A DNA stretch of 64,000 nt from Falseniella ignava CCUG 37419 (GTDB lineage: Bacteria > Bacillota > Bacilli > Lactobacillales > Aerococcaceae). Location of the stretch: contig NZ_JH932301.1 of assembly GCF_000301055.1 (NCBI RefSeq), positions 155,959 through 219,958 of the forward strand. The letters are read 5' to 3'. A model generated the notes under the pieces. The model was not told the origin of the DNA and made no database searches. It worked only from the letters and a program-made list of their open reading frames with translations. Numbering within the stretch: position 1 is the first letter of the stretch; each line of letters opens with the position of its first letter. A program made the position numbers and the translations under genes. Below, piece by piece: positions 3,778 through 20,976 of this stretch.

Positions 3778-4137
3778 TTGTTATTATTTATAAGTATTTG
3801 AATAAAAAAACATATATGCTTATGACTCAAGAGAGAAATTAAAAACTTGGGGTTCTATAATGTGATGAAAGTTCTAAAAGACAGGGAAGAGATTTTATAA
3901 ATCATTTGCTGTTATGATGTGTAAAAATACGTTATAGAAGATGTTGAGGAAAGAACAGCTATTTTGGATGATACTTAGGCTAATAATACTCATTATCATA
4001 ATAGATACTCGGTGATATTTTTATATCATCGAGCTTTTTTGTATATTCCATAACTTGAGAGCTAGACTCAACTATTTTTTTATAACCACAATTCATGTAC
4101 AATACAATTAACAGTCAAAATGAAGGAGGTTGCATGC
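3778..4137. other. Intergenic region, no intact gene
   Basis: Only short broken frames are seen, for example a 12-codon GTG frame at 3861. It may be a degraded gene. The only clear element is the hairpin at 4008-4041. A TACAAT hexamer at 4098-4103 with a preceding TG could be the pucR-type minus-10, but no good minus-35 is visible. Confidence 0.5.
4008..4041 (+). terminator. Rho-independent terminator
   Basis: An 11-bp stem (CTCGGTGATAT / ATATCATCGAG, one G-U) with a TTTT loop is followed by CTTTTTT. It separates the ABC/sulfurtransferase operon from the regulator gene. Confidence 0.8.
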
Positions 4138-5754
4138 ATGGTTTTACTTAGAGAAATTTTTAGTCATCCTTTTTTTGATAAAATTGATATTGCGACAGAT
4201 CGCAATGTTACATTGAATAAAGAAGTAACATCGGTTGTTTTGTCAGAAGTTCCCGACATTGAGAAATTTATTAAGCCGGGCGTCGTAGTAGTAACTACAG
4301 GAATTATTTATAAAGATATGCCTGATGAAATGATGAAGCTGATTGATTCGCTTAAGCGAGTGCATGCGGTGGCGCTAGGCTTTAAGGTTGGGCGTTTCTT
4401 TGATGAGATCCCACAAAATATTGTCGACTATGCCGATGAACAAGGATTGTTAGTCTTTCGCGTGCCCGAAGGGATCTTCTTAATTGATGTAGTAAATCAA
4501 ATTCAAAATATGATTCAAGGTACCGATGATTTGAGCTTTGCTTTGAATATTCAGAAGCAGTTGACTGATTTGATTTTCCGAGAAGCGTCGCAGCAATTTA
4601 TTATTGATCGTTTTGCAGAAATTGTTGGTACACCGGTTCTATTAATTTCGCCTTATTATTCGTTGGAATATGCTTCAAAAGATATTAATAAGGGGAAAAA
4701 CAAATCGATCATCGATCGCGTTTTATCATTTCTTCGTGATCAAAAAATTGAAAAAGAAATGTCGATTCGTCTCCCCCTTGAAGACTCAGATCAACAAGTC
4801 ATCCGCATTCGGGTTATTTCACTGAAGACCTACCAACATCATCCACATTACTTGGTAATCTTACATCCTGAGCAGTTACCTTATCCAATATCCGCCTTTA
4901 CTTTCGAACAGGTTGCAGTATCCATGTCTTTCGCGCTTTATAAAGATCGCAAAGAAGCAGCCACCGAGCACGCCATTCAGTCAGAGTATTATCGACGCTT
5001 GATGGGCCTATCTAAAGTGGGACGAGTTCCGGATGAATCGCTCTTAACCGATTTAAATTATGGAATTTTGCCGACAAACTACTATCAAGTGATTCGAATT
5101 GGCGATGCCGCATCGCTGGGGTTACCATACAATAGTAGCTATGAAGAAGAGAAGATGGAGATTCTTGCCCAATGGCTACGTACCTATGCCGGTGATTATT
5201 TGAAGGGTACTGTCGTTTTTGAAGATTCGCGCAGTGATAGTCTGTACCTTATTTTACAGCAATATACTAAGAAGCTGAACGCGACACTTCACCAAATTCA
5301 GGAGCGCATTGAGGCAGATTTGAAGATGGATATCTATTTCTGTCTGGGCAATACATATTTAGATTTAAGTAAGTTAGGGTTATCCTGTAATGAAGCTAAT
5401 ATTGTGTATGATGAAGTTCAAAAACGAGCCGCCCACGATATTGTGAACTATCTGGATAACAACGTGTTCTATCATCTATTTGGTGAGGTAAATAGTGATG
5501 TCGTGAAATATTATTGTCAGTCTGTCTTAAAAGAGTTGGCTTATCCGAAAGACAAGCAAATGATTGAATTGCGCAATACATTGAAGACGTATTTAGGCAA
5601 TCAATGTGAAATTTCTACTACCGCTAAAGAGTTATTTGTTCATCGCAACACAGTGATTTACCGGATTCAGAAATGTGAAGAAATGCTAGAGTACTCCGTT
5701 TCGGCGCCTCGGAACTCCTTAAATATCCGATTGGCTTTAGAGCTAAGTGAATAG
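4138..5754 (+). CDS. PucR-family transcriptional regulator
   Basis: A 538-residue regulator. The N-terminal PucR purine-catabolism-type domain covers about residues 5-120 (V-V-V-T-T-G-I, then G-F-K-V-G-R). A middle GGDEF-like/CdaR region follows, with the PucR C-terminal helix-turn-helix at the end (T-A-K-E-L-F-V-H-R-N-T-V-I-Y-R). The start at 4138 is preferred over the ATG at 4120 because AAGGAGG at 4123 sits correctly before it. Family members control purine, allantoin and related nitrogen catabolism. The downstream ureide-like cluster on the same strand is the likely target (inference). Confidence 0.85.
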   Translation: MVLLREIFSHPFFDKIDIATDRNVTLNKEVTSVVLSEVPDIEKFIKPGVVVVTTGIIYKDMPDEMMKLIDSLKRVHAVALGFKVGRFFDEIPQNIVDYADEQGLLVFRVPEGIFLIDVVNQIQNMIQGTDDLSFALNIQKQLTDLIFREASQQFIIDRFAEIVGTPVLLISPYYSLEYASKDINKGKNKSIIDRVLSFLRDQKIEKEMSIRLPLEDSDQQVIRIRVISLKTYQHHPHYLVILHPEQLPYPISAFTFEQVAVSMSFALYKDRKEAATEHAIQSEYYRRLMGLSKVGRVPDESLLTDLNYGILPTNYYQVIRIGDAASLGLPYNSSYEEEKMEILAQWLRTYAGDYLKGTVVFEDSRSDSLYLILQQYTKKLNATLHQIQERIEADLKMDIYFCLGNTYLDLSKLGLSCNEANIVYDEVQKRAAHDIVNYLDNNVFYHLFGEVNSDVVKYYCQSVLKELAYPKDKQMIELRNTLKTYLGNQCEISTTAKELFVHRNTVIYRIQKCEEMLEYSVSAPRNSLNIRLALELSE

Positions 5755-5785
5755 AACTAAATAATGCTGGAACAATCCAATTTTT

Positions 5786-5813
5786 CCCGAAGATGATGCA
5801 TCTTCGGGTTTTT
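5786..5813 (+). terminator. Rho-independent terminator after the PucR regulator
   Basis: A 10-bp perfect stem (CCCGAAGATG / CATCTTCGGG) with a 3-nt loop is followed by TTTTT. Confidence 0.88.
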
Positions 5814-5827
5814 GTGTGGCGTCGAAC

Positions 5828-6237: not shown

Positions 6238-6303
6238 GACTTTAATCATATCAAGAGCTAACTCTAACAATATATGCTGTTAAACCATTTTAGTTAAAAC
6301 AAC

Positions 6304-6317
6304 TAAAAACGTTTTCG
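6304..6317 (+). promoter_or_regulatory. Candidate cre (CcpA) site, weaker copy
   Basis: TAAAAACGTTTTCG matches 12 of 14 positions of the cre consensus TGWAANCGNTNWCA. It lies about 150 bp before the short-chain dehydrogenase start, close to a better match at 6351. Confidence 0.35.
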
Positions 6318-6350
6318 TTTTTTGTGCGCGGGTTGCCTAGGATAAGTTCA

Positions 6351-6364
6351 TGATAACGATTACA
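6351..6364 (+). promoter_or_regulatory. Candidate cre (CcpA) site
   Basis: TGATAACGATTACA matches 13 of 14 positions of TGWAANCGNTNWCA. It lies about 90 bp upstream of the catabolic operon, which fits carbon catabolite repression of the cluster. Confidence 0.5.
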
Positions 6365-6452
6365 GTATGAGGTGTAGATTAAGTAGGCGAGTAGGCCGAG
6401 TCATCGGATTTGGCTAAAAGCGGGGTTTAACAATAAAAGGAGGAAGATGTAA

Positions 6453-7205
6453 ATGTTGAAGGATAAGGTCATTATCGTTACAGGTACAGCAGGTGGGTTA
6501 GGTCGATCGATGGCGATTGAATTTGCAAGTCAAGGTGCTAAAGTTGTTATTAACGACGTGCAAGAAGAAGGAATGAAAGAAACCGAACAAATGATTCTCG
6601 ACAACGGCAGGACAGTTAAGTCGATTCTTGCTGACGTTTCAAGCAAAGCAGAAGGTGAAAAAATCATTGATACAGCGGTTAAAGAATTCGGTACGGTAGA
6701 TGTCATCGTGAATAACGCTGCGTTATTAGCGGACTTCAAGCCGTCATTAGGCATTTCAGAAGAAGAATGGGATCGCATTATGGCCGTAAACTTGAAGGGT
6801 GTTTACTTAATGACCAACACCGCTTTACCATTAATGTTAGAAAAAGGAGCAGGAACCTTTATTAACATTTGTTCAATTGGTGGATCTATTGCGGGTGTAG
6901 GTGACGCAGCTTATATTACTGCAAAGCACGGAGTGATTGGTTATACGAAACAATTAGCCTTTAACTATGCGAACAAGGGTATCCGTGCAGTAACCCTAAG
7001 TCCTGGTTTAACGGATACACCAATGGTACGCTACGCAATTGATGCGGGACGTGAAGAAGTAATGCGTCAAATCGAAGCAACTCCAGCAGGAAATATCGGT
7101 AAAGCAGAAGATGTTGCATATTTAGCAGCATTCTTAGCAAGTGACCGTGCACGCCATATTAACGGTGTGGACTACAAGATTGACGGAGCACAATCTGTCC
7201 TTTAA
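6453..7205 (+). CDS. Short-chain dehydrogenase/reductase
   Basis: A 250-residue classical SDR. The cofactor motif T-G-T-A-G-G-L-G is near residue 10, N-N-A near 88, the catalytic serine is in I-C-S-I-G-G near 140, and Y-I-T-A-K gives the Tyr-Lys pair near 153. It is preceded by an AAAGGAGGAAG site. It heads the catabolic operon and probably oxidises or reduces a hydroxyl/carbonyl intermediate with NAD(P). The family is too broad to fix the substrate. In known allantoin catabolism a different dehydrogenase (AllD) makes oxalurate; whether this SDR fills that role is speculation. Confidence 0.85.
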   Translation: MLKDKVIIVTGTAGGLGRSMAIEFASQGAKVVINDVQEEGMKETEQMILDNGRTVKSILADVSSKAEGEKIIDTAVKEFGTVDVIVNNAALLADFKPSLGISEEEWDRIMAVNLKGVYLMTNTALPLMLEKGAGTFINICSIGGSIAGVGDAAYITAKHGVIGYTKQLAFNYANKGIRAVTLSPGLTDTPMVRYAIDAGREEVMRQIEATPAGNIGKAEDVAYLAAFLASDRARHINGVDYKIDGAQSVL

Positions 7206-7239
7206 TTCATCGCATGACATTATAGAAAGAGAGAGAAAC

Positions 7240-8502
7240 ATGAGTAATTTATTAATTAGAAACGCACATATTAAAGACAACGAATCCGATAAAGATATTA
7301 AAGTCATTGACGGCATTATTGCTGAAATCGGAGAAAACTTAACGAACGAAGAAAAATTCGAAGAAATTGACTTGCAAGGTCAATCAATTCTACCGACACT
7401 GATTGAAAGTCATATCCATCCCGATAAAGCTTTCTTAGAAGAGCGTAAACCAAACGTCTCAGGGACACTTGACGAGGCGATGCGTAACACCGCTGAATTG
7501 AAATCAAAATACACTTATGAAGATGTATATAGCCGTGCAGAGCGTGTTATCCGCTGGTGTATTATGAATGGTTCAACGATTATGCGCGCGATTCCAGACG
7601 TGGACCCATTTGAGAAAACACTCGGCGTTCAAGTATTAGCAGATTTACGTGAAAAATATAAAGATGTGCTAGATATGCAAATTTGCTGCTTCCCACAAGA
7701 AGGAATCGTTCGTCACCCAGGTGTTTACGAAATGATGGAAGAATCGATTAAAATGGGTGCGGACGTTGTGGGGGGATGCCCTTATGCAGAAGATAACTTC
7801 GAAGGAACGAAGAAACATTTAGAAATGGTCTTTGACTTAGCACAAAAATATGACTTACCAATCGATATGCACGCAGACTTCGGTACGGATCCGAATGACC
7901 CAATGAACAACGTAGTAGAACTGATTGCCGATATGACCATCGAACGTGGTTGGGAAGGCCGTGTTTCATTAGGTCACGTAACCACTTTAGGTTCAGTTGA
8001 TGTAGACCGTGCAGCGCATATTTTCGATAAGTTAGCGAAAGCTCAAATTACAATTGTGCCACTTCCTGCAACCGATATGTTTATGAACGGTCAAGCAGAG
8101 CCAGTGAATACACCAAGAGCAATGGCTCCTGTTAAACGTATGCTAGCGAAAGGTGTCAACGTTGCATACTCTACGAACAATATTCGTAATGCCTTTACAC
8201 CTTTCAACAACGCAGACTTAATGGCGATTGGGTACTTACTTCAAGTTACACAACAAATGGGTTCAGCAACTGAACGTACAGCAGTCCTTGATATGGCAAC
8301 GTACAACCCAGCGAAGACCTTAGGCCTTCAAGATACTTACGGTATTGAAGTTGGTAAGAATGCGGACTTTGTTGTTTATGATAACAAAGACCTAAGTAAC
8401 TTAATTAACGATCAGCCGTTATTGAAATACGTTATTAAAAAAGGTGAAATTTTAGTTCAAAACGACCTAACAAGTAAGTTAGCACCAATTTTAGTAGACT
8501 AA
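7240..8502 (+). CDS. Cytosine-deaminase-like metal-dependent amidohydrolase
   Basis: A 420-residue TIM-barrel amidohydrolase. Visible metal-site elements are H-I-H-P-D-K near residue 62, D-M-H-A-D-F near 207 and L-G-H-V-T near 245. The position that carries the metal/catalytic Asp in E. coli cytosine deaminase appears here within Y-S-T-N-N-I-R-N, with Asn instead, so the chemistry may differ from classical deamination. The start at 7240 is chosen because it follows GAAAGAGAGAG and begins M-S-N-L-L-I-R-N, the usual N-terminus. It lies 34 bp after the SDR. It probably deaminates or opens an N-heterocycle imported by the NCS1 permease (inference). Confidence 0.8.
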   Translation: MSNLLIRNAHIKDNESDKDIKVIDGIIAEIGENLTNEEKFEEIDLQGQSILPTLIESHIHPDKAFLEERKPNVSGTLDEAMRNTAELKSKYTYEDVYSRAERVIRWCIMNGSTIMRAIPDVDPFEKTLGVQVLADLREKYKDVLDMQICCFPQEGIVRHPGVYEMMEESIKMGADVVGGCPYAEDNFEGTKKHLEMVFDLAQKYDLPIDMHADFGTDPNDPMNNVVELIADMTIERGWEGRVSLGHVTTLGSVDVDRAAHIFDKLAKAQITIVPLPATDMFMNGQAEPVNTPRAMAPVKRMLAKGVNVAYSTNNIRNAFTPFNNADLMAIGYLLQVTQQMGSATERTAVLDMATYNPAKTLGLQDTYGIEVGKNADFVVYDNKDLSNLINDQPLLKYVIKKGEILVQNDLTSKLAPILVD

Positions 8503-8529
8503 GAAATTTAACAGAAAGTAGGAAAAAAT

Positions 8530-9765
8530 TTGGTTGAAACGTTACTTAATAACAAAAAATTGACCGTTTCACCACATCCGCCTTATGATGCGCTTCAAGC
8601 ATTTGTTCGCGAGAACCATATTGCGCTAGAAGGTGCCGCTGAAGGGCCATTGAAAGGAATGGCCTTCGCGGTGAAGGATGTATTCGATATTGTTGGAAGT
8701 ACTTATTCGAATGGACATCCGATGTGGCTTCAAACGCATGAACCAGCTACTGAAACATCTAGTTTTATTGTGAACATGTTAGAAGCTGGAGCGGATTTAG
8801 TGGGGAAAACAATTTGTGATGAATTGTGCTACAGCATTAGTGGCGAGAATTGGAACTATGGGTCGCCATTAAACCCGCACGACCCACGCCGTTATTGCGG
8901 TGGATCATCAAGTGGGACAGGAGCTGCAGTAGCTGGCGGTTATGTGGACGTTGCTTTTGGTAGTGACTGCCTTGGATCCGTACGTGTTCCCGCAGCTTAC
9001 AACGGCGTCTTAGGCATCCGCCCGACACTTTATCGAGTAGATAATAGTGGTGAAGCTCCTTACTGCAAGTCGATGGATGTGTTAGGTTATGTCGCGCAAG
9101 ATCCAGACGTGTTCGAACAAGTATCTGAATTTATCTTAGGTGAAGACCAACATCAACAATCATTGAAGCGTCTCTTTATCCCGGTTGATTTATTAGATGT
9201 AGTAGATGACAATGTCCGCGAACATCTGAAATCGAGTATCGGGCGCATTAAAGGTTACTTCGATGAAGTGGTTGAAGGTAAGATTTGTCCAGGCGACTTG
9301 CAAGATTGGGTTAAAGTATTCCAGCATATTCAAGGCTATGAAGTGTGGGAGAGTTATGGAGGGTGGTACCGTAAGTATCGTCCGCAACTTTCTGAAGGAC
9401 CGGGAAGCCGTTTAGAATGGGCTTCAACTATTACTTACGCGCAGTATCAAGCGGCTCTTGAAGCGCGCGAAGAAATTATTAAGCAAGTGGATCAAGTGAT
9501 TACCGAGGATACAGTGGTTGTATTACCAACGGCAGCATCGATTGCACCGCTAAGAACAGATAGTGAAGAATCCATTAATCATACACGACTGCAATCAAGT
9601 CAGTTGCTCTGTATTTCACCACTATCAGGCGTTCCGCAAGTGACGCTACCGATTGCGACAATGGAAGAAGTTCCACTCGGAGTCTCATTATTGAGTCCAA
9701 GACACAGTGATTTACAACTAGTGAAGCTAGCTTGCCAAATCACACAAGATTACTTAAAAACTTAA
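8530..9765 (+). CDS. Amidase (amidase-signature family)
   Basis: A 411-residue amidase. The catalytic Lys lies in A-V-K-D-V-F-D near 50. The Ser-rich signature is G-G-S-S-S-G-T-G-A-A near 126, and the nucleophile region is G-S-D-C-L-G-S-V-R-V-P-A near 149. It starts with TTG after AGTAGGAAAA; no ATG lies close by. Length is slightly short for the family. It hydrolyses a linear amide or carbamoyl amide. Its place between the amidohydrolase and the permease suggests it acts on the ring-opened product. Confidence 0.82.
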   Translation: MVETLLNNKKLTVSPHPPYDALQAFVRENHIALEGAAEGPLKGMAFAVKDVFDIVGSTYSNGHPMWLQTHEPATETSSFIVNMLEAGADLVGKTICDELCYSISGENWNYGSPLNPHDPRRYCGGSSSGTGAAVAGGYVDVAFGSDCLGSVRVPAAYNGVLGIRPTLYRVDNSGEAPYCKSMDVLGYVAQDPDVFEQVSEFILGEDQHQQSLKRLFIPVDLLDVVDDNVREHLKSSIGRIKGYFDEVVEGKICPGDLQDWVKVFQHIQGYEVWESYGGWYRKYRPQLSEGPGSRLEWASTITYAQYQAALEAREEIIKQVDQVITEDTVVVLPTAASIAPLRTDSEESINHTRLQSSQLLCISPLSGVPQVTLPIATMEEVPLGVSLLSPRHSDLQLVKLACQITQDYLKT

Positions 9766-9811
9766 AAATAAAGTGCCTTTGTGGCATCGATGAGAGAAGT
9801 GAGGAATTTAT

Positions 9812-11269
9812 ATGACATCACGTGAAACCATCATCACCCAAGAGATGATTCAAGAATATCAACGTCGTGGTTACACGACGGAGGAGTTACTTCCGAAGAC
9901 GTCCGAAAAACGTAACATGGACAAGAAGAACTTCTTTACATTATGGATGGGGAATCTCCACAATATTCCAAACTATGCTTCAGCTGGAGGCTTCCTAGTA
10001 TTAGGGATTGCGCCATTTAATATTATGTTAGCTCTTGTACTTGGAGCTATTTTAGCGGGGCTAGTGTTAGCGCTGAATGGTCGCGCCAGTGCCAAATATG
10101 GGATTCCATTTTCAATGCGGCTGCGTGCAACCTATGGGGATAAAGGAGCGAAGTTACCGGGAGCGCTCCGGGGAATCGTTGTTGCGATTGCTTGGTTTGC
10201 ACTGCAGACATTTACCGGATCACAAGCACTCCTAATTCTAGTGGCTAAATTATGGCCAGGTGTGATGAATATCGGGGGTGGAGCATCCTTCTTGGGATTA
10301 TCTGTCCCAGGTTGGATTATGTTTATCTTATTCTGGCTAGCGAACTTATGGATTGGTCTGAGCGGAGGCGAATTTTTAAATAAATTCAACACCATCTTAA
10401 CCATCCTAATTTACGTTCTATTTATCGGAATGGGAATTTGGGGATTTGTCGTTGGCGGAGGCTTCGGTCCAATAATGAGCTATGCGGTTGAAAACGCAGC
10501 GGCAGCACCGAAAACAACCTTCGGTTATCTACTCATTATGAATGCGGTACTGGCATTCTGGGCGGCACCGACGGTAAGTGTAGGGGACTTTGCCCAACAT
10601 GCAACGTCTGACGAAGCACAATTTAAAGGGCAAATCTTAGGTTTGGTAGTTGGCTACATTGTCTTTGCCTTTACAAGTATGTTTATCTTTATTGGAAGTG
10701 CCATCCATTATGGTGTAGCACAATGGGATGTTTTAGGCGTAATTAACTCATGGGATAGTTTACCAGCCGCAGTATTGGCTTCACTAATCTTACTACTGAT
10801 TACTGTGAACTCGAACGCGGTTGCGAATATTATTCCAGCGGCTTATCAATTAGTAGCCTTATTCCCACAAAAAATTAATTACCGTTCAGGTGTAATCATT
10901 GCAAGTATTCTAGCGGTTGTGATTATGCCATGGAAACTCATGGAAAATCCAGACAGTATTTATACATTTTTAAATGCAATTGGAGCCATCTTAGGTCCAG
11001 TAACAGGGGTCATGTTATACCAATACTATGGTATTGATAAGCAAGAGATCGACTTAGATCAATTATACTTTGAAACAGGTCAACCATCGAAGTATCGCGG
11101 AACCAATGTCAAAGCGTATATTGCAACACTCGTAGGACTGATTGTCTCGCTAAGTGGAATGTTTATCCCAGCATTGAGCCTCTTCACCGAACTATCATGG
11201 TTCTCAGGCTTTATTGTAGCAGGGTTCGTGTATGCTATCCTTTCAATGAATCAAAAAGAAACAATCTAA
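9812..11269 (+). CDS. NCS1-family nucleobase/allantoin permease
   Basis: A 485-residue multi-spanning protein with about twelve hydrophobic segments, of the purine-cytosine / allantoin permease family. A conserved N-terminal stretch after about residue 40 has L-W-M-G-N-L-H-N-I-P-N-Y, and helix 3 carries the small-residue-rich pattern with F-A-L-Q-T-F-T-G. NCS1 proteins are cation or proton symporters for cytosine, allantoin, hydantoins and related compounds. This fits import of the cluster's substrate, whose identity cannot be read from the sequence. Confidence 0.85.
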   Translation: MTSRETIITQEMIQEYQRRGYTTEELLPKTSEKRNMDKKNFFTLWMGNLHNIPNYASAGGFLVLGIAPFNIMLALVLGAILAGLVLALNGRASAKYGIPFSMRLRATYGDKGAKLPGALRGIVVAIAWFALQTFTGSQALLILVAKLWPGVMNIGGGASFLGLSVPGWIMFILFWLANLWIGLSGGEFLNKFNTILTILIYVLFIGMGIWGFVVGGGFGPIMSYAVENAAAAPKTTFGYLLIMNAVLAFWAAPTVSVGDFAQHATSDEAQFKGQILGLVVGYIVFAFTSMFIFIGSAIHYGVAQWDVLGVINSWDSLPAAVLASLILLLITVNSNAVANIIPAAYQLVALFPQKINYRSGVIIASILAVVIMPWKLMENPDSIYTFLNAIGAILGPVTGVMLYQYYGIDKQEIDLDQLYFETGQPSKYRGTNVKAYIATLVGLIVSLSGMFIPALSLFTELSWFSGFIVAGFVYAILSMNQKETI

Positions 11270-11294
11270 AAATAATATTATGGAGGAATTAACT

Positions 11295-12233
11295 ATGAAA
11301 ATCGCAATTGTCGGCGCAGGTGCTATGGGTGCACTATATGGTGTTGTCTTACAAGATAAAGGGCACGACGTATACTTAATCGATACCGATCAAGCGCATG
11401 TTGATGCAATGAATAAAAATGGCGTTGTCTTCAACCACGTTATTGATCATGAAGTTAAGACTTATCCGGTTAAAGCTTTCTCAGATTCAAAAGACATCCA
11501 AGAAAAAATTGACTTGCTTATCATCTTAGTTAAAGGCTATGTTACAGATGTCGCGATGGAAGCGAACAAGCACTTAATCGATGAAAATACGATTGTGTTA
11601 ACTTTACAAAATGGGGCAGGAAACATCGAGAAAATCGAAAAATACGTTCCAAGAGAGCAAATCTTGGCAGGAACGACTTCAACAGCTGGATTTATTACTG
11701 AACCAGGCCATATTGACCATACAGGTAATGGTGGAACGCATATTGGAGAAATTAACGGTGGACGTACAGAGCGAATCGAAAAAATCCAAGAATTATTTGT
11801 AGATCCACGCTTAGGTGAATCCATTGTTGATGAGAACGTTATGAGCTTAATTTGGGAAAAACTTATTGCGAACAGTGGTATTAACTCAGTCGGTTCATTA
11901 ACTTACTTGAAGAACGGTGAAGCGTTAGATTCTGACGAGAAGAACTGGTTATTCGATCGCATTACTGAAGAAGCATTAGCAGTAGCAGATAAAGAAGGTA
12001 TTAAGTTAAGCTTCAATGACTCTGAAGGAATTAAGAAAGTATGTCGCGCGACCGCAGAAAACCGTACATCCATGATGATTGACGTGTTGAACAAGCGTAA
12101 GACAGAAATTGATTCCATTAACGGTGAAATTGTACGTCAAGGACGCAAGCATAATATTCCAACACCAATTAACGAAGCATTAGTGAACTTAGTACACTTA
12201 AAAGAGAAAAGTTATTTAGAGTTTGGTGAGTAA
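11295..12233 (+). CDS. Ketopantoate-reductase-like (ApbA/PanE) protein
   Basis: A 312-residue protein with an N-terminal Rossmann motif (I-A-I-V-G-A-G-A-M-G) and the PanE-type C-terminal helical domain (W-E-K-L-I-A-N-S-G-I-N-S). The start at 11295 follows TATGGAGGAA. Bona fide PanE reduces ketopantoate with NADPH. Within a nitrogen-heterocycle cluster it more likely reduces another 2-oxo acid intermediate (inference). It lies between the permease and a metal chaperone. Confidence 0.78.
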   Translation: MKIAIVGAGAMGALYGVVLQDKGHDVYLIDTDQAHVDAMNKNGVVFNHVIDHEVKTYPVKAFSDSKDIQEKIDLLIILVKGYVTDVAMEANKHLIDENTIVLTLQNGAGNIEKIEKYVPREQILAGTTSTAGFITEPGHIDHTGNGGTHIGEINGGRTERIEKIQELFVDPRLGESIVDENVMSLIWEKLIANSGINSVGSLTYLKNGEALDSDEKNWLFDRITEEALAVADKEGIKLSFNDSEGIKKVCRATAENRTSMMIDVLNKRKTEIDSINGEIVRQGRKHNIPTPINEALVNLVHLKEKSYLEFGE

Positions 12234-12275
12234 TCACTAGATTATTAAAAACATCCATAGAAAGGAGTCTGCACA

Positions 12276-13280
12276 GTGAATCCAATTCCTGTTACGTTAT
12301 TAAGTGGATTTTTAGGTTCGGGTAAGACCACACTACTCAATCAAATTATTAAAACCAATCAATCCGACCAGATTTTTGTGATTATGAATGAATTTGGTGA
12401 GATTAGTATTGATTCTCAATTATTGTATGAGATTGACGAGACACAAGTATTTCAGCTCAACAATGGCTGTATGTGCTGTGTTGCCAATAATGAGATGAAA
12501 AGTACTTTTGCCAAAATTATGACCTTAATCGATCAACAACAAGTTCAGATTGATCAAATTGTGATTGAACTGAGTGGATTAGCGGATCCTGAACCGGTGA
12601 TTCAGACGATTACGGAGACACCTTTCTTATGTGATTATTTCTATTTGGATTCAGTCTATACCTTAATTGATTCGCAAAATGGCGCTCATCAATTGGATGA
12701 GTATGAAGAATTAACTTCTCAAATTCTCTATGCGGACAAGTTACTTTTTACGAAAAATCATCCGAATGATTTGGAAAAATTAGTCGAACGAATTCGTCAA
12801 ATTAATCCCTTTGTTCCAATGGAGACAGTGGAGTTAAATAGTCAAACGGCGAAGCATTACTTACACCGAAATTTATTTGGACAAAAACCAGTGGAGTTTG
12901 ATGCGCATTTGAATCAATGGCTAGAAAATTATCACCAACATGCTGACGATCATGGCCATCATCACCATCACAGTGATTTGACTAGCTTTGCAATTGAAGT
13001 TGAGGAAGGCTTGACAGCCACCCAAGTGGAACAATGGTTGGAGTACTTAATCAATCGATATGGTAAGGACTTAGTTCGTTATAAAGGGTTTATAGCTGTA
13101 GAGTCTTTTGAGCATCAGTTGATTGTTCAAGGGGTCCATCAATGGTTCCAACTTGATCGAGGAAGATTATGGGAGCCAGAGGAGCCACGCGTGAGTCGGA
13201 TGGTCTTTATTGGACGGCAACTCGATCCAGACCATATCAAGCAAACGCTGTTAGATCCAACGTTAATCGAAGTCAAATAG
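12276..13280 (+). CDS. CobW/G3E-family metallochaperone GTPase
   Basis: A 334-residue protein with a GTG start after AGAAAGGAG. Walker A is G-F-L-G-S-G-K-T-T near residue 11. The metal-binding C-x-C-C motif lies in N-G-C-M-C-C near 64, and a histidine-rich segment (H-G-H-H-H-H-H) near 227 precedes the CobW C-terminal domain. Such GTPases deliver Zn or other metals to client enzymes. The nearby amidohydrolase is the obvious metal-requiring candidate (inference). Confidence 0.85.
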   Translation: MNPIPVTLLSGFLGSGKTTLLNQIIKTNQSDQIFVIMNEFGEISIDSQLLYEIDETQVFQLNNGCMCCVANNEMKSTFAKIMTLIDQQQVQIDQIVIELSGLADPEPVIQTITETPFLCDYFYLDSVYTLIDSQNGAHQLDEYEELTSQILYADKLLFTKNHPNDLEKLVERIRQINPFVPMETVELNSQTAKHYLHRNLFGQKPVEFDAHLNQWLENYHQHADDHGHHHHHSDLTSFAIEVEEGLTATQVEQWLEYLINRYGKDLVRYKGFIAVESFEHQLIVQGVHQWFQLDRGRLWEPEEPRVSRMVFIGRQLDPDHIKQTLLDPTLIEVK

Positions 13281-13292
13281 AAGGGAATCCAG

Positions 13293-13901
13293 ATGAAAAA
13301 GACAAAGATTCCAACCACTTGTTGGTCGGACGCAACAAAAGGTCAAGGGAATTTACCGAGTGCAATCCAGGCGCTAGATCCAACAACTTATCTGGAAGGA
13401 CCGGCTTATCCAGTCCAACTAGTCAAAGGTGATAATTTAGATTTAATCGAAGCGATTTTACAAGCACCTACGGGTAGTGTATTGGTGGTGAATGCTGCCG
13501 AGAATACTTCCACGGCGATCATTGGAGACAACTATGCCGCCGCAGCGAAAGCGCTAGGGATCGCAGGGATCGTTACTGATGGCCTTGTTAGAGATTATCA
13601 AGAGATTATCGATTTGAATCTCCCTATTTTTTGTATAGGGCACTGCGCTCGTTCACCGAAGAAACAAGGTGGTGGTCAGCAAAATAGGGCGATTGTGATC
13701 GGAGATGTTGACATTCATCCTGGAGATTATATTGTCGGAGACTGCAATGGGGTGATAGTTATTCCGCCAGATCAAGTTGAGACGGTTAGAGAACAAGCCC
13801 AACTGAAGGATCAGCGTGATGAAGCAACGAGTCAACGAATCCAAGATAATCCGCAAGCAGCACAAGCTTATTTAGAAGAGCTCGTTGCAAAATTCCGCTA
13901 A
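13293..13901 (+). CDS. RraA-family aldolase/decarboxylase-like protein
   Basis: A 202-residue RraA/demethylmenaquinone-methyltransferase-like fold. The key segment G-I-V-T-D-G-L-V-R-D near residues 91-100 carries the Asp/Arg residues that bind metal and pyruvate-type substrates in 4-hydroxy-4-methyl-2-oxoglutarate aldolases. G-D-Y-I-V-G-D near 149 is also typical. It starts 12 bp after the CobW gene and is the last gene before a bidirectional terminator. It probably cleaves or decarboxylates a 2-oxo acid made by the pathway; RNase E inhibition is not relevant here. Confidence 0.8.
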   Translation: MKKTKIPTTCWSDATKGQGNLPSAIQALDPTTYLEGPAYPVQLVKGDNLDLIEAILQAPTGSVLVVNAAENTSTAIIGDNYAAAAKALGIAGIVTDGLVRDYQEIIDLNLPIFCIGHCARSPKKQGGGQQNRAIVIGDVDIHPGDYIVGDCNGVIVIPPDQVETVREQAQLKDQRDEATSQRIQDNPQAAQAYLEELVAKFR

Positions 13902-13930
13902 TAAGATTCCATAAAAATTAAAATTAAAAA

Positions 13931-13965
13931 CGTTCTGAATGGAAATCCGTTCAGAACGCTTTTTT
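13931..13965. terminator. Bidirectional terminator between convergent operons
   Basis: A 12-bp stem (CGTTCTGAATGG / CCGTTCAGAACG, one G-U) with an AAAT loop has T tracts in both directions. It lies between the RraA-like gene and the convergent allH gene. Confidence 0.88.
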
Positions 13966-13977
13966 ATTTAGTCTGAT

Positions 13978-14835
13978 TCAACTTGCGATCAGTTCGGTCA
14001 AATAGAAAGCAGCTCCCGCTAACATATCGTAACCGGACGTATGACCGTAGTGTTGAATGTGTTGAATGGCTTGTTGTAGTTGATTGGTGTCATTCTTTTG
14101 AATGGCTAGCATTAGCTGAATCCAAGGTCGACTCGCTTGCCCTGCTAGGACTGCTCGATAATAGGCCGAACTAACAGAGGTCGTCTGTCGTTCTTTCGAA
14201 GCTACTCGAACGGCAGATTGAAAGACGGGCGGTTGGTTCAGAGCTTGTTCAAAAATCAGTATCCCTTGTAAAAAGTCATCCCCGGAAGGGGTTAACCCTA
14301 TCCCAGCTCCGATAAAAGGTAAGACCGCTGCTTGCCTCTGCTCTTGTGTTTCGGCACTCTTTAATGCATCCAACATTCCATCAAGTTGTTCCAAGGGTAG
14401 TCCTGTTGATTCGAGCGCTATTTGCGCGTTTAAGCGACTACTCACTTCAGTTTGAGCCAATTGTTTAAAAGTTAAGGTAGGAATGGACAGTGATTCAACC
14501 ATTGTTTCGCGAATAATCAGTTGAATCGGTTGAGGACGTCGATACAACGTCCACTGATGTGGCTCGCACTTAATGAGCATCCCTGGCTTGATATAATCGA
14601 TCAGCGAACGCGAATGTGTGAGTGCAACTTGACAGCCAATCGGTGATAATTGATCTGGCTGCATGGCTGAGACATAGATGAGCTGTTGTTGGATGTTCAG
14701 ATTAAAGCCATTTTGGAAGATGGATCCCACCTTGCCAACCCAACCGGACTGAGTCAATGGATGAATCCACTGACTCAGTAGGATTTGGGCTTCAATCTTA
14801 GAGTGCGTCAACATCGATGCCGAGGTGTTCAGCAT
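13978..14835 (-). CDS. allH: AllH-like subunit (DUF2877), oxamate carbamoyltransferase
   Basis: A 285-residue DUF2877 protein. Recognisable features are the G-I-G-L-T-P-S-G-D-D-F-L-Q-G stretch near residue 185 and a G-H-T-S-G-Y-D-M-L segment near the C-terminus. In E. coli, AllH (YlbF) works with AllF (FdrA) and AllG (YlbE) as oxamate carbamoyltransferase, converting oxalurate and phosphate to oxamate and carbamoyl phosphate. The gene overlaps the end of the AllF-AllG fusion by 38 bp (start 14835; an alternative at 14814 also overlaps), which indicates translational coupling. Confidence 0.75.
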   Translation of the reverse strand: MLNTSASMLTHSKIEAQILLSQWIHPLTQSGWVGKVGSIFQNGFNLNIQQQLIYVSAMQPDQLSPIGCQVALTHSRSLIDYIKPGMLIKCEPHQWTLYRRPQPIQLIIRETMVESLSIPTLTFKQLAQTEVSSRLNAQIALESTGLPLEQLDGMLDALKSAETQEQRQAAVLPFIGAGIGLTPSGDDFLQGILIFEQALNQPPVFQSAVRVASKERQTTSVSSAYYRAVLAGQASRPWIQLMLAIQKNDTNQLQQAIQHIQHYGHTSGYDMLAGAAFYLTELIAS

Positions 14836-17809
14836 AAGCGATCAACGCTTTCTCAAAAGCAGCCACTGGCGCTGTTACGGTACCTGCACCGACTTGACCG
14901 ACACCCGCTTTCTTATGAGCAATCCCCGTATTAATAATCGGCTCGATGCCGGTTTCTATGACTTTACGAATATCAATTCCTAAGTTAGCCCCTCGGAAGT
15001 CCCAAGTTGGAATCGACCAGTTCGGGTTTTGACCAACGACAATTTTAGCTTGTTCGTTCGAGATACGTACCGCATCCTCGAAACCACCCGCTCCGATAAA
15101 GCGTGTAACACCCGGTGCGGCAATCATCGCAGAACCACCTAGACCGATGGTCTCAGTAATCGCAGAGTCTCCAATATCCGCGTTAGCATCTTCTTCGCTG
15201 TATCCCGTAAAGAAGAGACCGTTCGGCGTATTAACTGGGGCAGTAAACCATTGATCCCCTAGCGCCGCAATGCGGATTCCAAAGTTCTCGCCGTTACGTG
15301 CCATCGTCGTAACTACCGTTCCTTTTTGAACTTTACGGGCATAATCAACCACAACTTTACCAGTGGCCATTGCAATGTTCAAGAAGAATTGATCCGTATC
15401 CGCTAAGAATTGTAACGTATCTTGCTTGTCTTTTTCATCAATATCAAGTTGGGTAATGATGGGTGCCACTTCTTTCAAGAAGACAAGTGAAGCCGCGATA
15501 TTACGTTGGTGGAACTCATCTCCCATACCAATCGCACGGGCAATCATAATACTTGTATTCAAGCCGCCATCAATCGCACGTAGCGCTTGTCCTAATACTG
15601 GACCTAAGACATCGCGCATCCACTCGAGCCGCGTAATAACTTCTTCGTTATTAGCACCGAAGCGTAATACGTTTCCGATACCTTCGTTCATAATACAGTA
15701 GCCTTCCGTGTCGTCCAAGGCATTTTGTACGACAAAGACAGGGAAGTTTTGGGTCGTAATTCCCCCCATTGGACCGACAGCATTCACATGGTGACATGGC
15801 ATAAATTCTACTTCGCCAGACTCAAGTTGTCTTAATGCATCCGCTTGATCCGTTGCCCAACCTTCGAAGAGCATCGCACCAATACATGAACCTTGCATTG
15901 GTCCCGTCATATTTTCGAATTTAATCGGTGGACCGGCATGTAAGATAATTTTCTTACCATGACTTAGTTCTGGAATGACTTCCTTAGCGTATTTCACGTC
16001 AACTAAGTTAGGTTGAGCTTCACGCATCCGTTGAACAATCTCTTCGTTCGCTTCATCGATTGCTTCAGCATGTGCATCGAGCGCATCGAGAACTTTAATT
16101 AATTTTACATTGCCGCCGGCACGTGGACGCCAGTCGTATTGAACGACTTTACCACCAAATTCTTGAATGGATTCTGAGAAACCTTCTAAACCAATATTAA
16201 TCACGCGCGGTTGCGTTGTAATTAAGTCCATCACTTGCTCACTTGGTGTAGGTAAGCTTACTTTCTCACCTTGGTAGTCCACAAATGAACGATCAGGAAG
16301 TTTGTAATCAATTCCCATTAATTCAAGTGCGAGTCTAACCGCACGGGCATTGGTTGTTTCGACTAAGACTCCAGCCGCTTTCAAATCTTGAATCGCTTGC
16401 GAGTAGCTTTGTGGGTCAGAATCTGTACCAACCACTGTTGCAATTAGGTGCAATTCACGGTTGTTTGCTTTCGCATGGTCTAGTGCTTCGGTAATTTGTG
16501 GAATTAACGCATTCACCATATCTGGGTGAGATCCATAACCTAAGACCACATCGAATAAGACAATACCTGTTGTTTCGTCTTGTAGGACTTCTTTTAACTT
16601 GTTAATTCGAACAGATGGATCAATCATTGGGTGTGGCTTCCCTTGTGTATAGAAGTCATCGCCTAAGTCCATCACTTCGAATCCATTCGCATTTAAAATA
16701 TAGCCTTGTTCATTTTGGATGTCGCCTAAGTCTAATGCGTCAGCAATCAACATCGCCGCTTCGTTAGCTAGCGTACCCCCAGAGTAGAGTCCTTTCACCG
16801 TCTTGCCATCGAGTGCTTTTTCTACGTGATTATCTAAAGCTTCGTTATAGTTTACTTTTAATGTCTCACCATTGGCTAGGTCGACCGACATACGCGCAGC
16901 TTCTTCCAATGTATAAGCAAAGGCAACGTTCCCTGCATGTTCCATTGGTTTTTCACCAAGGAAAATCGCTACAACCGGTTTGGTAATCGATTGTAAGATT
17001 TCAACCACGTTATCACGGATTGTTTTGGCAGGTGGTTTCGAAATCACACAGATAACATCGGTGGTCGGATGGGCTTCGAGTGCTAAAATCGCATCGATCA
17101 TGGTCCGTGCGCCCACCTCTTCATTCAGGTCGCGTCCCCCGGTACCAATCTCATTGACAACCCCGCCACCTAGACGGTCAATAATCGTTGTTACTTCTTG
17201 GATTCCGGTTCCTGAAGCCCCAACAATACCGATATTACCGGGTCTAACCACGTTGGTAAAGGCTAATGGAATACCGGAAATAATCCCCGTTCCGCAGTCT
17301 GGTCCCATTAAGAGTAAGCCAGCTTCATGCGCTTTATTTTTAAGACGGACTTCATCTTCTAAAGCTACGTTATCTGAGAAAGAGAAGACGTGTAAACCTT
17401 GATTGAGTGCATGCTCAATCTCACGTGCTGCATATTGACCTGGAATTGAGATTAATGCTAAGTTCGCTTCAGGAAGTGCCTCAAGCGCCTCTTGCCAATG
17501 AGAAACATTTTGTTGGGTTGTCTGTGATTTTTTCGAGCTGAGATCATTTAAGAAACTCTCAACTCGCTCTAAGACGACCTCCATTACGGATTCATCATCG
17601 GATTCAACGACAATCGCCATATCATTCGCGCCTGCGGCCATCAATTCATCGGTGGATAAGCCTGCACCAGCGAAGATATCTTTATTAGCATCCGTCGCCA
17701 TCATCACTTGCGCTTGTTTCACACCGGGCATATTATTTAATTCGGCCGATAGTAACATTAAGTTAATGGAGTCTTGATAATTGCCTTTTTGAATATTGGT
17801 AAATAACAT
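14798..17809 (-). CDS. Fused AllF-AllG (FdrA + DUF1116), oxamate carbamoyltransferase
   Basis: A 1003-residue fusion. Residues about 1-510 are FdrA-like, with CoA-ligase-type folds: G-I-V-G-A-S-G-T-G near 200 and G-L-Y-S-G-G-T-L near 340. Residues about 540-1000 are DUF1116/YlbE-like (G-P-P-I-K-F-E-N-M-T-G-P, M-N-E-G-I-G). E. coli has these as two genes. With AllH next door, all three subunits of oxamate carbamoyltransferase are present in two genes. No carbamate kinase or AllD is found in the window, so the carbamoyl phosphate must be used elsewhere or the natural substrate differs from oxalurate. Transcribed divergently from the hydrolase. Confidence 0.8.
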   Translation of the reverse strand: MLFTNIQKGNYQDSINLMLLSAELNNMPGVKQAQVMMATDANKDIFAGAGLSTDELMAAGANDMAIVVESDDESVMEVVLERVESFLNDLSSKKSQTTQQNVSHWQEALEALPEANLALISIPGQYAAREIEHALNQGLHVFSFSDNVALEDEVRLKNKAHEAGLLLMGPDCGTGIISGIPLAFTNVVRPGNIGIVGASGTGIQEVTTIIDRLGGGVVNEIGTGGRDLNEEVGARTMIDAILALEAHPTTDVICVISKPPAKTIRDNVVEILQSITKPVVAIFLGEKPMEHAGNVAFAYTLEEAARMSVDLANGETLKVNYNEALDNHVEKALDGKTVKGLYSGGTLANEAAMLIADALDLGDIQNEQGYILNANGFEVMDLGDDFYTQGKPHPMIDPSVRINKLKEVLQDETTGIVLFDVVLGYGSHPDMVNALIPQITEALDHAKANNRELHLIATVVGTDSDPQSYSQAIQDLKAAGVLVETTNARAVRLALELMGIDYKLPDRSFVDYQGEKVSLPTPSEQVMDLITTQPRVINIGLEGFSESIQEFGGKVVQYDWRPRAGGNVKLIKVLDALDAHAEAIDEANEEIVQRMREAQPNLVDVKYAKEVIPELSHGKKIILHAGPPIKFENMTGPMQGSCIGAMLFEGWATDQADALRQLESGEVEFMPCHHVNAVGPMGGITTQNFPVFVVQNALDDTEGYCIMNEGIGNVLRFGANNEEVITRLEWMRDVLGPVLGQALRAIDGGLNTSIMIARAIGMGDEFHQRNIAASLVFLKEVAPIITQLDIDEKDKQDTLQFLADTDQFFLNIAMATGKVVVDYARKVQKGTVVTTMARNGENFGIRIAALGDQWFTAPVNTPNGLFFTGYSEEDANADIGDSAITETIGLGGSAMIAAPGVTRFIGAGGFEDAVRISNEQAKIVVGQNPNWSIPTWDFRGANLGIDIRKVIETGIEPIINTGIAHKKAGVGQVGAGTVTAPVAAFEKALIAYAEHLGIDVDAL

Positions 17810-18035
17810 TCTATACTTCCTTTCTAAATTTATTCAGCGGTTTTCTGGGTCTACACACCCTAATTTGGTGTTTTTGAAAGAGACAAAGATTCACCATAAG
17901 CCTATTGTACTGCAATATGAAAGCACTTTTAAGGATAAAACAAACAAACAAATTCACTCCCTTTGGTTATTGTGGCCAATTCAATTTTGAAGGTAAGTGC
18001 TATACTGAAGAAGCTAGGATGAATAGGGTGAAATC
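17810..18035. promoter_or_regulatory. Divergent intergenic region between the AllFG fusion and the hydrolase
   Basis: This 226-bp stretch must hold promoters for both divergent units. No convincing minus-35/minus-10 pair or palindromic operator could be singled out by eye. A weak cre-like stretch (TGAAAGCACTTTTA) is near 17918. Confidence 0.35.
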
Positions 18036-18890
18036 ATGAAAGAAAAACAATTAACAATCCCACTTCAGGGGTTACCGTATGTCAAGGACGTGGGAGCCAC
18101 CTACTATTACGGAACAACGCATCGTGGAACGATTCTTTACTTACACGGTGGTGGGTTCTTGTTCGGACAACGCGAAGATTTACCTCAACCATATTTGGAG
18201 CGCTTGATCGGTCAAGGCTATCATATATTGGCGCTGGATTATCCACTTGCTCCTCAGGTGAGCTTGTCACAGATTATGACCGCCATTAGACAATCGGTTG
18301 ATTGGTTTGAGACAACAGGGTACCGTGAACTCGGCTTATCAGATAATAAATATTTCTTGTTCGGACGATCAGCCGGTGCTTATGCGGCGTTACTTTTAGC
18401 GAGTCATCAGTCGTCCGACCATCTACGTGGTGTAGCTAGCTTTTATGGTTATACAACGTTACAAGATGCTGCATTCAGTTATCCAAGTCGTGACTATTTG
18501 AAGTTACCTGCCGTACCGCAGACCGTCGCACAACAACTACAGCAATCGCCCGTCGTTACCCAAGATGCGACCCAACAGCGCTACTTGCTGTATGTGTATG
18601 CTCGACAAACCGGTCAGTGGCTATCATTATTAGGTATTTCAACAGAAGATTTGGCGCATTCATTCACTGTGCAAAGTGACCAAATTACTTGCCCATTATT
18701 TATCACCCATGCGCGCCGTGACCCGGATGTTCCGTTTCGACAATCAAGTCGTTTAGCGCAAGCGGTCGAGGACGCAACCTTTATTCCCGTTGAAAGTGAT
18801 AGGCATGATTTCGACCGAGTAGATATCGAAGGACTCGGTATGTCCATTTATGAACAATTCATTCAATGGTTAGATCAATATTCAAGATAA
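18036..18890 (+). CDS. Alpha/beta hydrolase (HSL/esterase-lipase type)
   Basis: A 284-residue hydrolase. The oxyanion motif H-G-G-G lies in L-Y-L-H-G-G-G-F-L-F near residue 35. The nucleophile elbow G-R-S-A-G is near 110. The acid is likely the Asp in R-R-D-P-D-V-P near 229, and the base the His in S-D-R-H-D-F near 253. Family members cleave carboxyl esters or amides of small molecules. It lies 13 bp before the AEC transporter gene, so the two are probably co-transcribed. The substrate is unknown. Confidence 0.82.
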   Translation: MKEKQLTIPLQGLPYVKDVGATYYYGTTHRGTILYLHGGGFLFGQREDLPQPYLERLIGQGYHILALDYPLAPQVSLSQIMTAIRQSVDWFETTGYRELGLSDNKYFLFGRSAGAYAALLLASHQSSDHLRGVASFYGYTTLQDAAFSYPSRDYLKLPAVPQTVAQQLQQSPVVTQDATQQRYLLYVYARQTGQWLSLLGISTEDLAHSFTVQSDQITCPLFITHARRDPDVPFRQSSRLAQAVEDATFIPVESDRHDFDRVDIEGLGMSIYEQFIQWLDQYSR

Positions 18891-18903
18891 GAGAGGTGTA
18901 CGT

Positions 18904-19842
18904 ATGCAATTAGATTTCTTTATGACGTTGCAGCGTGTTTTAGTTTTATTTCTATTAATTGTTATTGGCTTTATCTCGGGGAAAGTCGGCTTAATCTCGA
19001 AAAAAGGACAAAAAGATATTACGAACTTAGTTCTATATGTTACGATGCCGGCAACCATCTTTACTGCCATGCAGATGGAGTTGAATACCGAACGGATGCA
19101 GACTGCTGGAACGATTGCCCTGATTGTTGCCGCTGGATATGTTTTAATGTTTATCATTGGTTTAGTTAGCTCGAAGTTTTCATTTTTAGGCTTTGATGAT
19201 GCGCAACAAGGTGTTTACCGAACATCACTCCTATTATCTAATACGTCATTTATGGGCTATCCGATTGTAGCGAGTCTTTTAGGGGAAGAAGCCTTATTCT
19301 ATGCCGTTCTGGGAGCTGGCTTTATTTTCGAAGTCGTCTCTTGGTCGGTTGGAATCTACCTGATGGGACGTCGTGGGCAAGGCGTAGTCAACTTCAACTG
19401 GAAGAAGATTGTCTTCAGTCCAGGTATTCTATCGATTGTCGTCGGGTTGATTTTCTTCTTTGGGCAATGGACGGTCATGGCACCATTCTCGAATGTAATC
19501 GATACGTTAGCACCAGCTACCTCGCCATTAGCGATGATTGTCGTTGGACTGATCTTATCGCAATCAGATATTCAAGCGACATTCCAAAATAAAGTACTCT
19601 ATTTTCAAGCGGCTATTAAGTTATTGGTGGTTCCGTTAATCCTATTGATGATTCTGAAGATGTTAAATATGACGGGTGCACAATTATTAATTCCAGTTAT
19701 TATGTTAAGTATGCCAACCGCTTCTTATGTCGCAATGTTCGCATCCAACTATCAAAATAATGCGGAGTTAGCAAGTCAAATTGTCTTTATGACGTCGTTA
19801 CTTTCAATTATCACGATTCCAATTATTACCTTATTCTTCTAA
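18904..19842 (+). CDS. AEC-family transporter
   Basis: A 312-residue membrane protein with about ten hydrophobic segments, of the auxin-efflux-carrier family. It opens with the family's F-I-S-G-K-V-G-L-I and N-L-V-L-Y-V-T-M-P-A pattern and carries an S-N-T-S-F-M-G-Y-P segment mid-protein. Bacterial members export or import organic acids such as malate, malonate or oxamate-like compounds. With the carbamoyltransferase nearby, efflux of a carboxylate end product is plausible (inference). It has a GAGAGGTG ribosome site and ends in a hairpin at 19856-19885. Confidence 0.82.
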   Translation: MQLDFFMTLQRVLVLFLLIVIGFISGKVGLISKKGQKDITNLVLYVTMPATIFTAMQMELNTERMQTAGTIALIVAAGYVLMFIIGLVSSKFSFLGFDDAQQGVYRTSLLLSNTSFMGYPIVASLLGEEALFYAVLGAGFIFEVVSWSVGIYLMGRRGQGVVNFNWKKIVFSPGILSIVVGLIFFFGQWTVMAPFSNVIDTLAPATSPLAMIVVGLILSQSDIQATFQNKVLYFQAAIKLLVVPLILLMILKMLNMTGAQLLIPVIMLSMPTASYVAMFASNYQNNAELASQIVFMTSLLSIITIPIITLFF

Positions 19843-19846
19843 TGGA

Positions 19847-19902
19847 TCTATTCAACCAACCTGTAATCAAACAGGTTGGTTTTTTGTTGGAATAGAAAAG
19901 AC
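19847..19902 (+). repeat. Direct repeat copy 1 (contains a terminator)
   Basis: This 56-bp stretch recurs at 24992-25048 with two loop mismatches and one extra T. It contains the hairpin CCAACCTG / CAGGTTGG followed by TTTTTT, the terminator of the AEC gene. The two copies bracket the AT-rich block holding the second ABC transporter, the C-S lyase and the UroD-like gene. Confidence 0.88.
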
Positions 19903-20970: not shown

Positions 20971-20976
20971 TTTTTT

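Follow-up and report, generated by a model that had tools for sequence, protein, structure and literature searches.

An Oxamate Carbamoyltransferase Module beside a Possible Hydantoin-Utilization Operon in Falseniella ignava

Introduction

The AllF, AllG, and AllH proteins of Escherichia coli are described as a proven oxamic transcarbamylase of the anaerobic allantoin (ALL) pathway, in which this enzyme, an orphan until then, was identified in 2024 (PMC11326118); oxalurate is also reported to be a possible energy source through oxamic transcarbamylase (PMC3282769). Here, we analyzed a stretch of 64,000 nucleotides from Falseniella ignava CCUG 37419 (contig NZ_JH932301.1, positions 155,959 to 219,958 of the forward strand; this whole stretch is called the window), in which homologues of the three proteins adjoin a seven-gene operon encoding, among others, a hydantoin/allantoin-type permease and an amidohydrolase of the cytosine-deaminase/AtzC fold, termed CDA-NN. 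An oxalurate pathway of Enterococcus faecalis is, to judge by their titles, reportedly the subject of two papers of 1965 and 1986, and parabanate, one of the substrates suggested in a preliminary description of the cluster, fits the title of the former. We tentatively propose that the cluster allows a hydantoin-ring compound different from allantoin to be used, via oxalurate and AllFGH, for nitrogen and energy, an assignment made from sequence that we hold to be possible, if somewhat short of probable.

An Allantoin-Type AllFGH Module without a Front End

Homologues of AllF, AllG, and AllH were found together in the window, which is the gene content expected of an oxamic transcarbamylase, and the module is flanked by a hydrolase gene and a transporter gene:

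13978..14835, minus strand: AllH subunit of oxamate carbamoyltransferase (PF11392, 88.5 versus 25 bits)
14798..17809, minus strand: AllF-AllG fusion of oxamate carbamoyltransferase, 1003 aa (PF06545, 297 bits; PF00549; PF02629; matches to PDB 3dmy and 3clq; tree)
18036..18890, plus strand: alpha/beta hydrolase, divergent from AllFG (same arrangement in the allantoin clusters of relatives)
18904..19842, plus strand: AEC-family transporter, after the alpha/beta hydrolase (same arrangement in relatives)

The preliminary description had let the cluster end in a carbamoyltransferase made of AllFG and AllH; these genes are present, with AllF and AllG as one fused gene of 1003 codons that overlaps AllH, but the gene ending at 18890 is the plus-strand alpha/beta hydrolase. 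The fused protein shares 46.8-47.2% identity, over nearly the full length, with AllF plus AllG of E. coli records, and the reaction predicted for AllFG with AllH is likely that between carbamoyl phosphate plus oxamate and oxalurate, in either direction. In the tree, the window AllFG falls within an allantoin-type clade of fused proteins (13 rows, support 100/99), where its sister (G058; support 100/99; 77% identical) comes from a locus that holds AllC, AllE, AllD, and ArcC. Since the gene is intact and its end branch (0.23) is like that of the sister (0.21) and not accelerated, there is no sign of decay. Among 15 fused-AllFG loci without CDA-NN in the stretch, AllC was present in 11, the alpha/beta hydrolase in 12, and the AEC transporter in 8; the hydrolase gene is divergent from AllFG in those 12 (in G058, from the AllD gene in front of AllFG). 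The 11 AllC-bearing loci are allantoin clusters of up to 20 kb with AllB, AllE, AllD, ArcC, and NCS1 genes in varying completeness, and the window carries the same AllH-AllFG/hydrolase-AEC block. The earlier view of a carbamoyltransferase as the likely last step therefore stands, and tree and neighborhoods place it in the allantoin-cluster clade. AllG itself occurs in 27 of the 76 genomes of the family, F. ignava included.

The F. ignava genome is 98% complete, and gene absences were judged over all of it. No AllB passes the cut-off (the best match, a D-hydantoinase-type protein, reaches 251 bits versus 357.85), and AllC, AllD (Ldh_2), and AllE gave no match at E 0.001. The absences claimed earlier were thus confirmed for AllC, AllD, and an AllB over the cut-off but not for carbamate kinase, which is encoded, over the cut-off, at C1:630710, far from the window. 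Given that the AllFG is of the allantoin-type clade in a genome without AllC, AllD, AllE, and an AllB over the cut-off, it appears as an allantoin-pathway end module that lacks the front end.

Two regions elsewhere in the genome are recorded here. Directly before the carbamate kinase gene lie two putative ornithine-cyclodeaminase-variant genes (C1:628416-631633; L081:6417-9634). The D-hydantoinase-type gene, at C1:24473, stands within C1:23118-28228 (L078:19119-19532, L079:471-4228) together with a GrdX-like gene (recognized by eye), a sarcosine-reductase-type GrdG gene (below the cut-off), and a GrdB-type gene whose reading frame, after VILTST, meets a TGA stop, which we take to be the expected position of the GrdB selenocysteine; it is possible that these genes serve N-methylhydantoin or creatinine fermentation. 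No gene between 6453 and 19842 was assigned to a D-hydantoinase or N-carbamoylase (the HyuA/HyuC route).

The Operon Permease and a Proposed Route to Oxalurate

Convergent with the AllFGH genes, the following regulator and operon genes were observed:

4120..5754, plus strand: PucR-family transcriptional regulator (PF07905 and PF13556 over the cut-off)
6453..7205, plus strand: SDR oxidoreductase, operon gene 1 (TGxxxGxG and YxxxK motifs)
7240..8502, plus strand: cytosine-deaminase/AtzC-fold amidohydrolase CDA-NN (N313-N314 replace D313-D314 of cytosine deaminase; model pLDDT 94.5)
8530..9765, plus strand: amidase-signature hydrolase (NF006169, 413 versus 391 bits; carries the Ser-cisSer-Lys triad motifs)
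9812..11269, plus strand: NCS1 permease, hydantoin/allantoin type (F at Mhp1 position 219)
11280..12233, plus strand: PanE/ApbA-like oxidoreductase (TIGR00745, 264 versus 141 bits)
12276..13280, plus strand: CobW-family GTPase, putative metal chaperone (PF02492, PF07683; P-loop, CxCC)
13293..13901, plus strand: RraA-like/aldolase-type protein (PF03737; DGxxRD motif)

The permease scores 655.5 bits versus the NCBI allantoin-permease cut-off of 620 and also matches Mhp1. In Mhp1, the hydantoin ring is reported to be held by Asn318, Gln121, Gly219, and Trp117, with Gly219 bordering the pocket of the hydantoin 5-substituent (PMC4195764). The Mhp1 contacts W117, Q121, W220, and N318 are kept in all six core-operon permeases and in all ten permeases of allantoin clusters, whereas the two groups differ at position 219 (F in 6/6 versus V in nine and T in one) and at position 317 (A in 6/6 versus G in nine and S in one). 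Because the ring contacts are kept and positions 219 and 317 differ, we infer that the permease would import a hydantoin ring with a 5-substituent other than the ureido group of allantoin.

These residues also bear on a nonorthologous allantoin pathway, in which NCS1 would take up allantoin, CDA-NN would replace AllB, the amidase AllC/AllE, and the SDR or PanE-like enzyme AllD, with the same AllFGH end. We consider such a pathway rather unlikely: it would accord with a permease that passes the allantoin-permease cut-off, with the descent of AllFG from the allantoin-type clade, and with AllB, AllC, AllE, and AllD being exactly the missing set, but positions 219 and 317 are unlike those of all 10 allantoin-cluster permeases compared, and the sequence gives no sign that CDA-NN handles allantoin.

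In the hydantoin route that we propose, NCS1 would import the substrate, for which we commit to 5-hydroxyhydantoin (or parabanate) as the candidate, and CDA-NN would open the ring. The SDR and/or the PanE-like enzyme would perform the sole oxidation in place of the missing AllD, acting either on the hydroxyl of the ring, which would turn 5-hydroxyhydantoin into parabanate, or instead on ureidoglycolate, and AllF-AllG/AllH would cleave oxalurate with phosphate, yielding oxamate and carbamoyl phosphate. The distant carbamate kinase would then gain ATP and ammonia from carbamoyl phosphate, the amidase may free ammonia from oxamate or oxalurate, and a possible role of CobW is to load metal into the amidohydrolase. 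By formula, both hydrolyses balance, one water added to 5-hydroxyhydantoin giving ureidoglycolate and one added to parabanate giving oxalurate. Parabanic acid is reported to serve B. cenocepacia as a nitrogen source.

CDA-NN Is a Conserved Clade with an Altered Active Site

CDA-NN was aligned with 70 of 120 listed homologues (2861 were found), which gave 71 rows, with one 27% relative carrying Asp left out. H58, H60, H211, and H246 are kept in 71/71 rows; we take the HxH and two further His to be metal/catalytic residues of cytosine deaminase, whose fold was matched by the structure model. Compared with cytosine deaminase and AtzC, the fold is alike, but the beta8 Asp (D313 of cytosine deaminase) is Asn in all 71 rows, and the position aligned to E217 is Phe (F214) in 70 rows and Leu in one. 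D313 is presumably the metal ligand and E217 the proton shuttle of cytosine deaminase. With two active-site residues lost, CDA-NN is unlikely to be a deaminase, and a cytosine deaminase function was rejected; thus, the fold and the four His behind the earlier label of a cytosine-deaminase-like hydrolase were recovered, but the deaminase reaction was not. The view of a ureide/hydantoin-type cluster without a standard allantoin front end is supported, with carbamate kinase located elsewhere and a deaminase unlikely. In databases, members of the clade, which include beta-proteobacterial homologues, are named "cytosine deaminase" or "N-acyl-D-amino-acid deacylase"; the active site of this conserved clade of amidohydrolases is at odds with such names.

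CDA-NN Is Linked to AllFGH in Other Genomes

A CDA match was observed in 17 of the 76 family genomes, and the beta8 motif, read in 12 fetched regions besides the window, is NN in nine and HDD in three, a count that leaves out the matches of G006, G026, G034, and G036 and the second match of G050 (32-35% identical). Ten family genomes have a strong CDA-NN match (in G052 the gene is interrupted, and G063 is 63% complete), and in eight of them, window included, CDA-NN and a fused AllFG share one stretch; CDA-NN and AllG lie on different contigs in G003, and G052 has no AllG. AllG was present in nine of these ten genomes and in 18 of the other 66 (Fisher p 2.5e-4, without correction for kinship). 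Seven of the linked loci (G050, G051, G054, G060, G063, G066, and G071) carry a distant CDA-NN branch (41-44% identical); each has a transporter gene, and mostly also PucR, ArcC, and the hydrolase. CDA-NN was also found with fused AllFG, AllD, and ArcC in one stretch of E. faecalis NZ_CP143580.1. It is mainly because of this linkage in other genomes that we read the operon and AllFGH of the window as connected.

The window CDA-NN itself belongs to a Bacillales branch, with about 70% identity to those proteins versus 41-44% to the AllFG-linked ones of the family, which suggests that the pairing of CDA-NN with AllFGH probably arose twice. Elsewhere in their genomes, G060, G066, and G071 also hold AllB and AllC over the cut-off with an unfused AllG within 15 kb (the G071 cluster is L098), so that the CDA-NN module there looks like a second pathway. 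The coexistence of distant CDA-NN enzymes with AllB and AllC, in these three genomes and in G050, likewise argues against CDA-NN as a substitute in an allantoin pathway.

The Operon Core Recurs in Bacillales

The SDR, CDA, and amidase genes occur in the same order in 6/6 distinct Bacillales loci (L002, L003, L004, L065, L066, and L067; L064 and L068 duplicate L002 and L004 and were counted once), accompanied by NCS1 in five, PanE-like in three, and RraA-like genes in two. The gene-neighborhood comparison that the preliminary description had advised thus grouped AllFG with allantoin clusters and the operon core with Bacillales loci lacking AllFGH in the stretch; a single assembly, as had been supposed, is not borne out, and the cluster is built of units with different relatives. 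A CDA-NN search of the class gave 2 of 398 genomes passing E 1e-120, and the amidase occurs in 8 of 395 genomes of the order (F. ignava included in both).

Two further observations concern CDA homologues. The genus of G360 has a homologue of about 70% in 5 of 68 genomes and one of 56-58% in 10 more; in the one annotated locus of the second kind (L072:9197-13810), the neighbors of a 57% CDA-NN homologue include a Rieske oxygenase and a xanthine/uracil-type permease. Within the family, L027 (G052) appears to be a decaying partial operon copy, in which stop codons interrupt CDA-NN and the amidase, with an RraA-like gene nearby.

Points against a Connected Pathway

A number of observations weigh against the proposed hydantoin route. 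No AllFGH was found in the fetched stretch (about 17-21 kb) of any of the six Bacillales loci, and so AllFGH is not needed there. In three of seven fetched loci of the order, the amidase stands beside an RraA-like gene with no other operon gene, and such pairs without CDA, NCS1, and AllFGH hint at a substrate that the proposed scheme does not need; the scheme gives the RraA-like protein no role, and the fit of CobW is not well explained. Within the cluster (stretch 4001-24000), there is no carbamate kinase, and no operator (PucR) common to the operon and the AllFG unit was found; an inverted repeat, TTTGT...ACAAA, which lies in the AllFG-hydrolase gap of 6 of 11 relatives, was found neither in the window nor in the sister G058. 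Eight further columns also separate operon from allantoin-cluster permeases, so that the differences at positions 219 and 317 could be plain kinship. G050 has a single, fused AllG on one contig with CDA-NN and AllB/AllC, and a separate role of CDA-NN modules is therefore not general. With the beta8 Asp lost, it is doubtful that CDA-NN follows ordinary amidohydrolase chemistry, and a literature search for bacterial 5-hydroxyhydantoin catabolism returned only an unrelated tuberculosis-biomarker listing.

Several of these points would suit two unrelated neighbors, namely an operon that breaks a lactam or amide down to a keto acid through the amidase, the PanE-like enzyme, and the RraA aldolase, next to an AllH-AllFG pair left over as the last piece of an allantoin cluster otherwise lost. 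The operon without AllFGH in the stretch of 6/6 Bacillales loci, the RraA-amidase pairs in other genomes, and the lack of both a common operator and a local carbamate kinase agree with this explanation. However, both AllFG and AllH are intact, with no acceleration in AllFG, the permease keeps its hydantoin contacts, and CDA-NN and AllFGH are linked in other genomes; we regard unrelated neighbors as unlikely.

Further Features of the Locus

The seven operon genes (6453-13901) follow one another with intergenic gaps of 34, 27, 46, 10, 42, and 12 bp, and the operon starts 698 bp after the PucR gene. Between the two, at window positions 5825-6235, lie 41-bp tandem repeats of two related units, with 3.4 and 7 copies. 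All gene types named in the preliminary description were recovered by open reading frames and family searches; PucR does belong to the set, but at 4120-5754 it falls outside the 6453-18890 given there. For CDA-NN, the ATG at 7240 is a likelier start than the listed GTG at 7141 and yields the 420-aa protein of the public set (P0001). The genes of the block 4120-19842 have a GC content of 0.38-0.46, compared with 0.31-0.34 in the AT-rich adjoining genes and 0.35-0.41 in five stretches of 20 kb from other parts of the genome; a foreign origin by base composition was rejected, as the adjoining genes are the AT-rich ones. Plasmid records held no near DNA match to 6453-19842. Farther downstream, behind ABC-transporter genes, a PatB-type C-S lyase gene is followed by an MtaA/URO-D-family methyltransferase-like gene (22453-24699).

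Other AllFGH Modules

AllFGH sets were also observed beside other genes. On plasmids of Citrobacter, Klebsiella, Enterobacter, and others, one stretch combines an AtzD-type cyanuric acid amidohydrolase (581 versus 360 bits), an NCS2 permease, AllH, AllF, and AllG (L040:6281-13923, NZ_CP042536.1), with carbamate kinase next in the one record annotated; the 6660 bases from AtzD to AllG matched 49 records, in 47 of which the coverage is at least 80%, and these plasmids perhaps allow cyanurate to be used through carbamoyl phosphate. An E. coli plasmid (L077:8354-15564, NZ_MW800638.1) has, in a row, a BiuH-like hydrolase (280 bits, below the cut-off of 370), AllH, AllF, AllG, carbamate kinase, a protein with the allophanate-hydrolase C-terminal domain, and a cytosine permease. 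Nitrifiers are reported in a published survey to carry allFGHK next to biuH (PMC12625717). Three loci (L082, L092, and L095) hold AllFG with MFS and dicarboxylate-type transporters, AllD in two of the three, and no recognized ring opener in the stretch; they may perhaps take up ureidoglycolate or oxalurate itself. Finally, a third AllF/AllG/AllH set of G060 (L096:9298-16905; AllF and AllG 40-42% identical) adjoins two PRK06846-type amidohydrolases and an ankyrin/TPR protein.

Another reading would have a six-membered ureide as substrate: a dialurate/alloxan or barbiturate-type ring would be opened, AllFGH would act on a longer ureido acid, and RraA would decarboxylate a keto acid. Linkage of AllFGH relatives to other ring openers, such as AtzD, and the inclusion of oxaloacetate decarboxylases in the RraA models speak for it; we nevertheless find it very improbable, as the permease is hydantoin-type by its contact residues, and the window AllFG is of the allantoin type and shares only about 42% identity with its AtzD-linked counterpart.

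A wider form of the proposed hydantoin route, which we regard as speculative and improbable as a whole, would make the CDA-NN clade the missing ring opener of the old streptococcal parabanate/oxalurate fermentation. Having given up the beta8 metal Asp, it would act on parabanate or 5-hydroxyhydantoin and feed a portable AllFGH "ureide phosphorolysis" module that combines with different ring openers (AllB, CDA-NN, AtzD, or BiuH-like). In the literature searched, judged by title and start of abstract, no gene for streptococcal oxalurate formation from parabanate was met.

Comparison with Known Systems

The window shares with the E. coli ALL pathway the AllF, AllG, and AllH homologues (about 47% identity over AllF plus AllG) and an NCS1 permease, and with the allantoin cluster of E. 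gilvus the PucR gene. It differs from the E. coli pathway in the fusion of AllF and AllG and in a different operon that replaces the front end, whose AllC, AllD, and AllE, and an AllB over the cut-off, the genome lacks, with carbamate kinase encoded elsewhere. The operon shares gene order and 56-71% identity (RraA 34-36%) with the SDR-CDA-amidase-NCS1(-PanE/RraA) operon of Sporosarcina and Bacillus, whose stretches lack AllFGH, whereas that of the window adjoins it. In the literature, judged mainly by title and start of abstract, no function was described for the Sporosarcina/Bacillus operon, and a search joining the gene types of the cluster returned no paper.

The module of E. faecalis NZ_CP143580.1 shares fused AllFG (63%), AllH, PucR, the alpha/beta hydrolase, and CDA-NN (41%) with the window; however, it has AllD, ArcC, and other transporters, and its stretch gave no match to the SDR, amidase, NCS1, PanE, CobW, or RraA. 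At the limits used, neither Pfam nor NCBIfam gave a match for the transporter encoded next to its CDA-NN gene. We infer that this gene module is the oxalurate pathway of 1986. The F. ignava cluster supplies a short list of candidate enzymes suited to expression. Occurring with AtzD, BiuH-like, CDA-NN, or allantoin genes, AllFGH appears to be a terminal module whose ring opener can be exchanged. Taken together, these comparisons provide evidence for AllFGH as the end module of several ureide pathways, of which the F. ignava cluster looks like a new combination.

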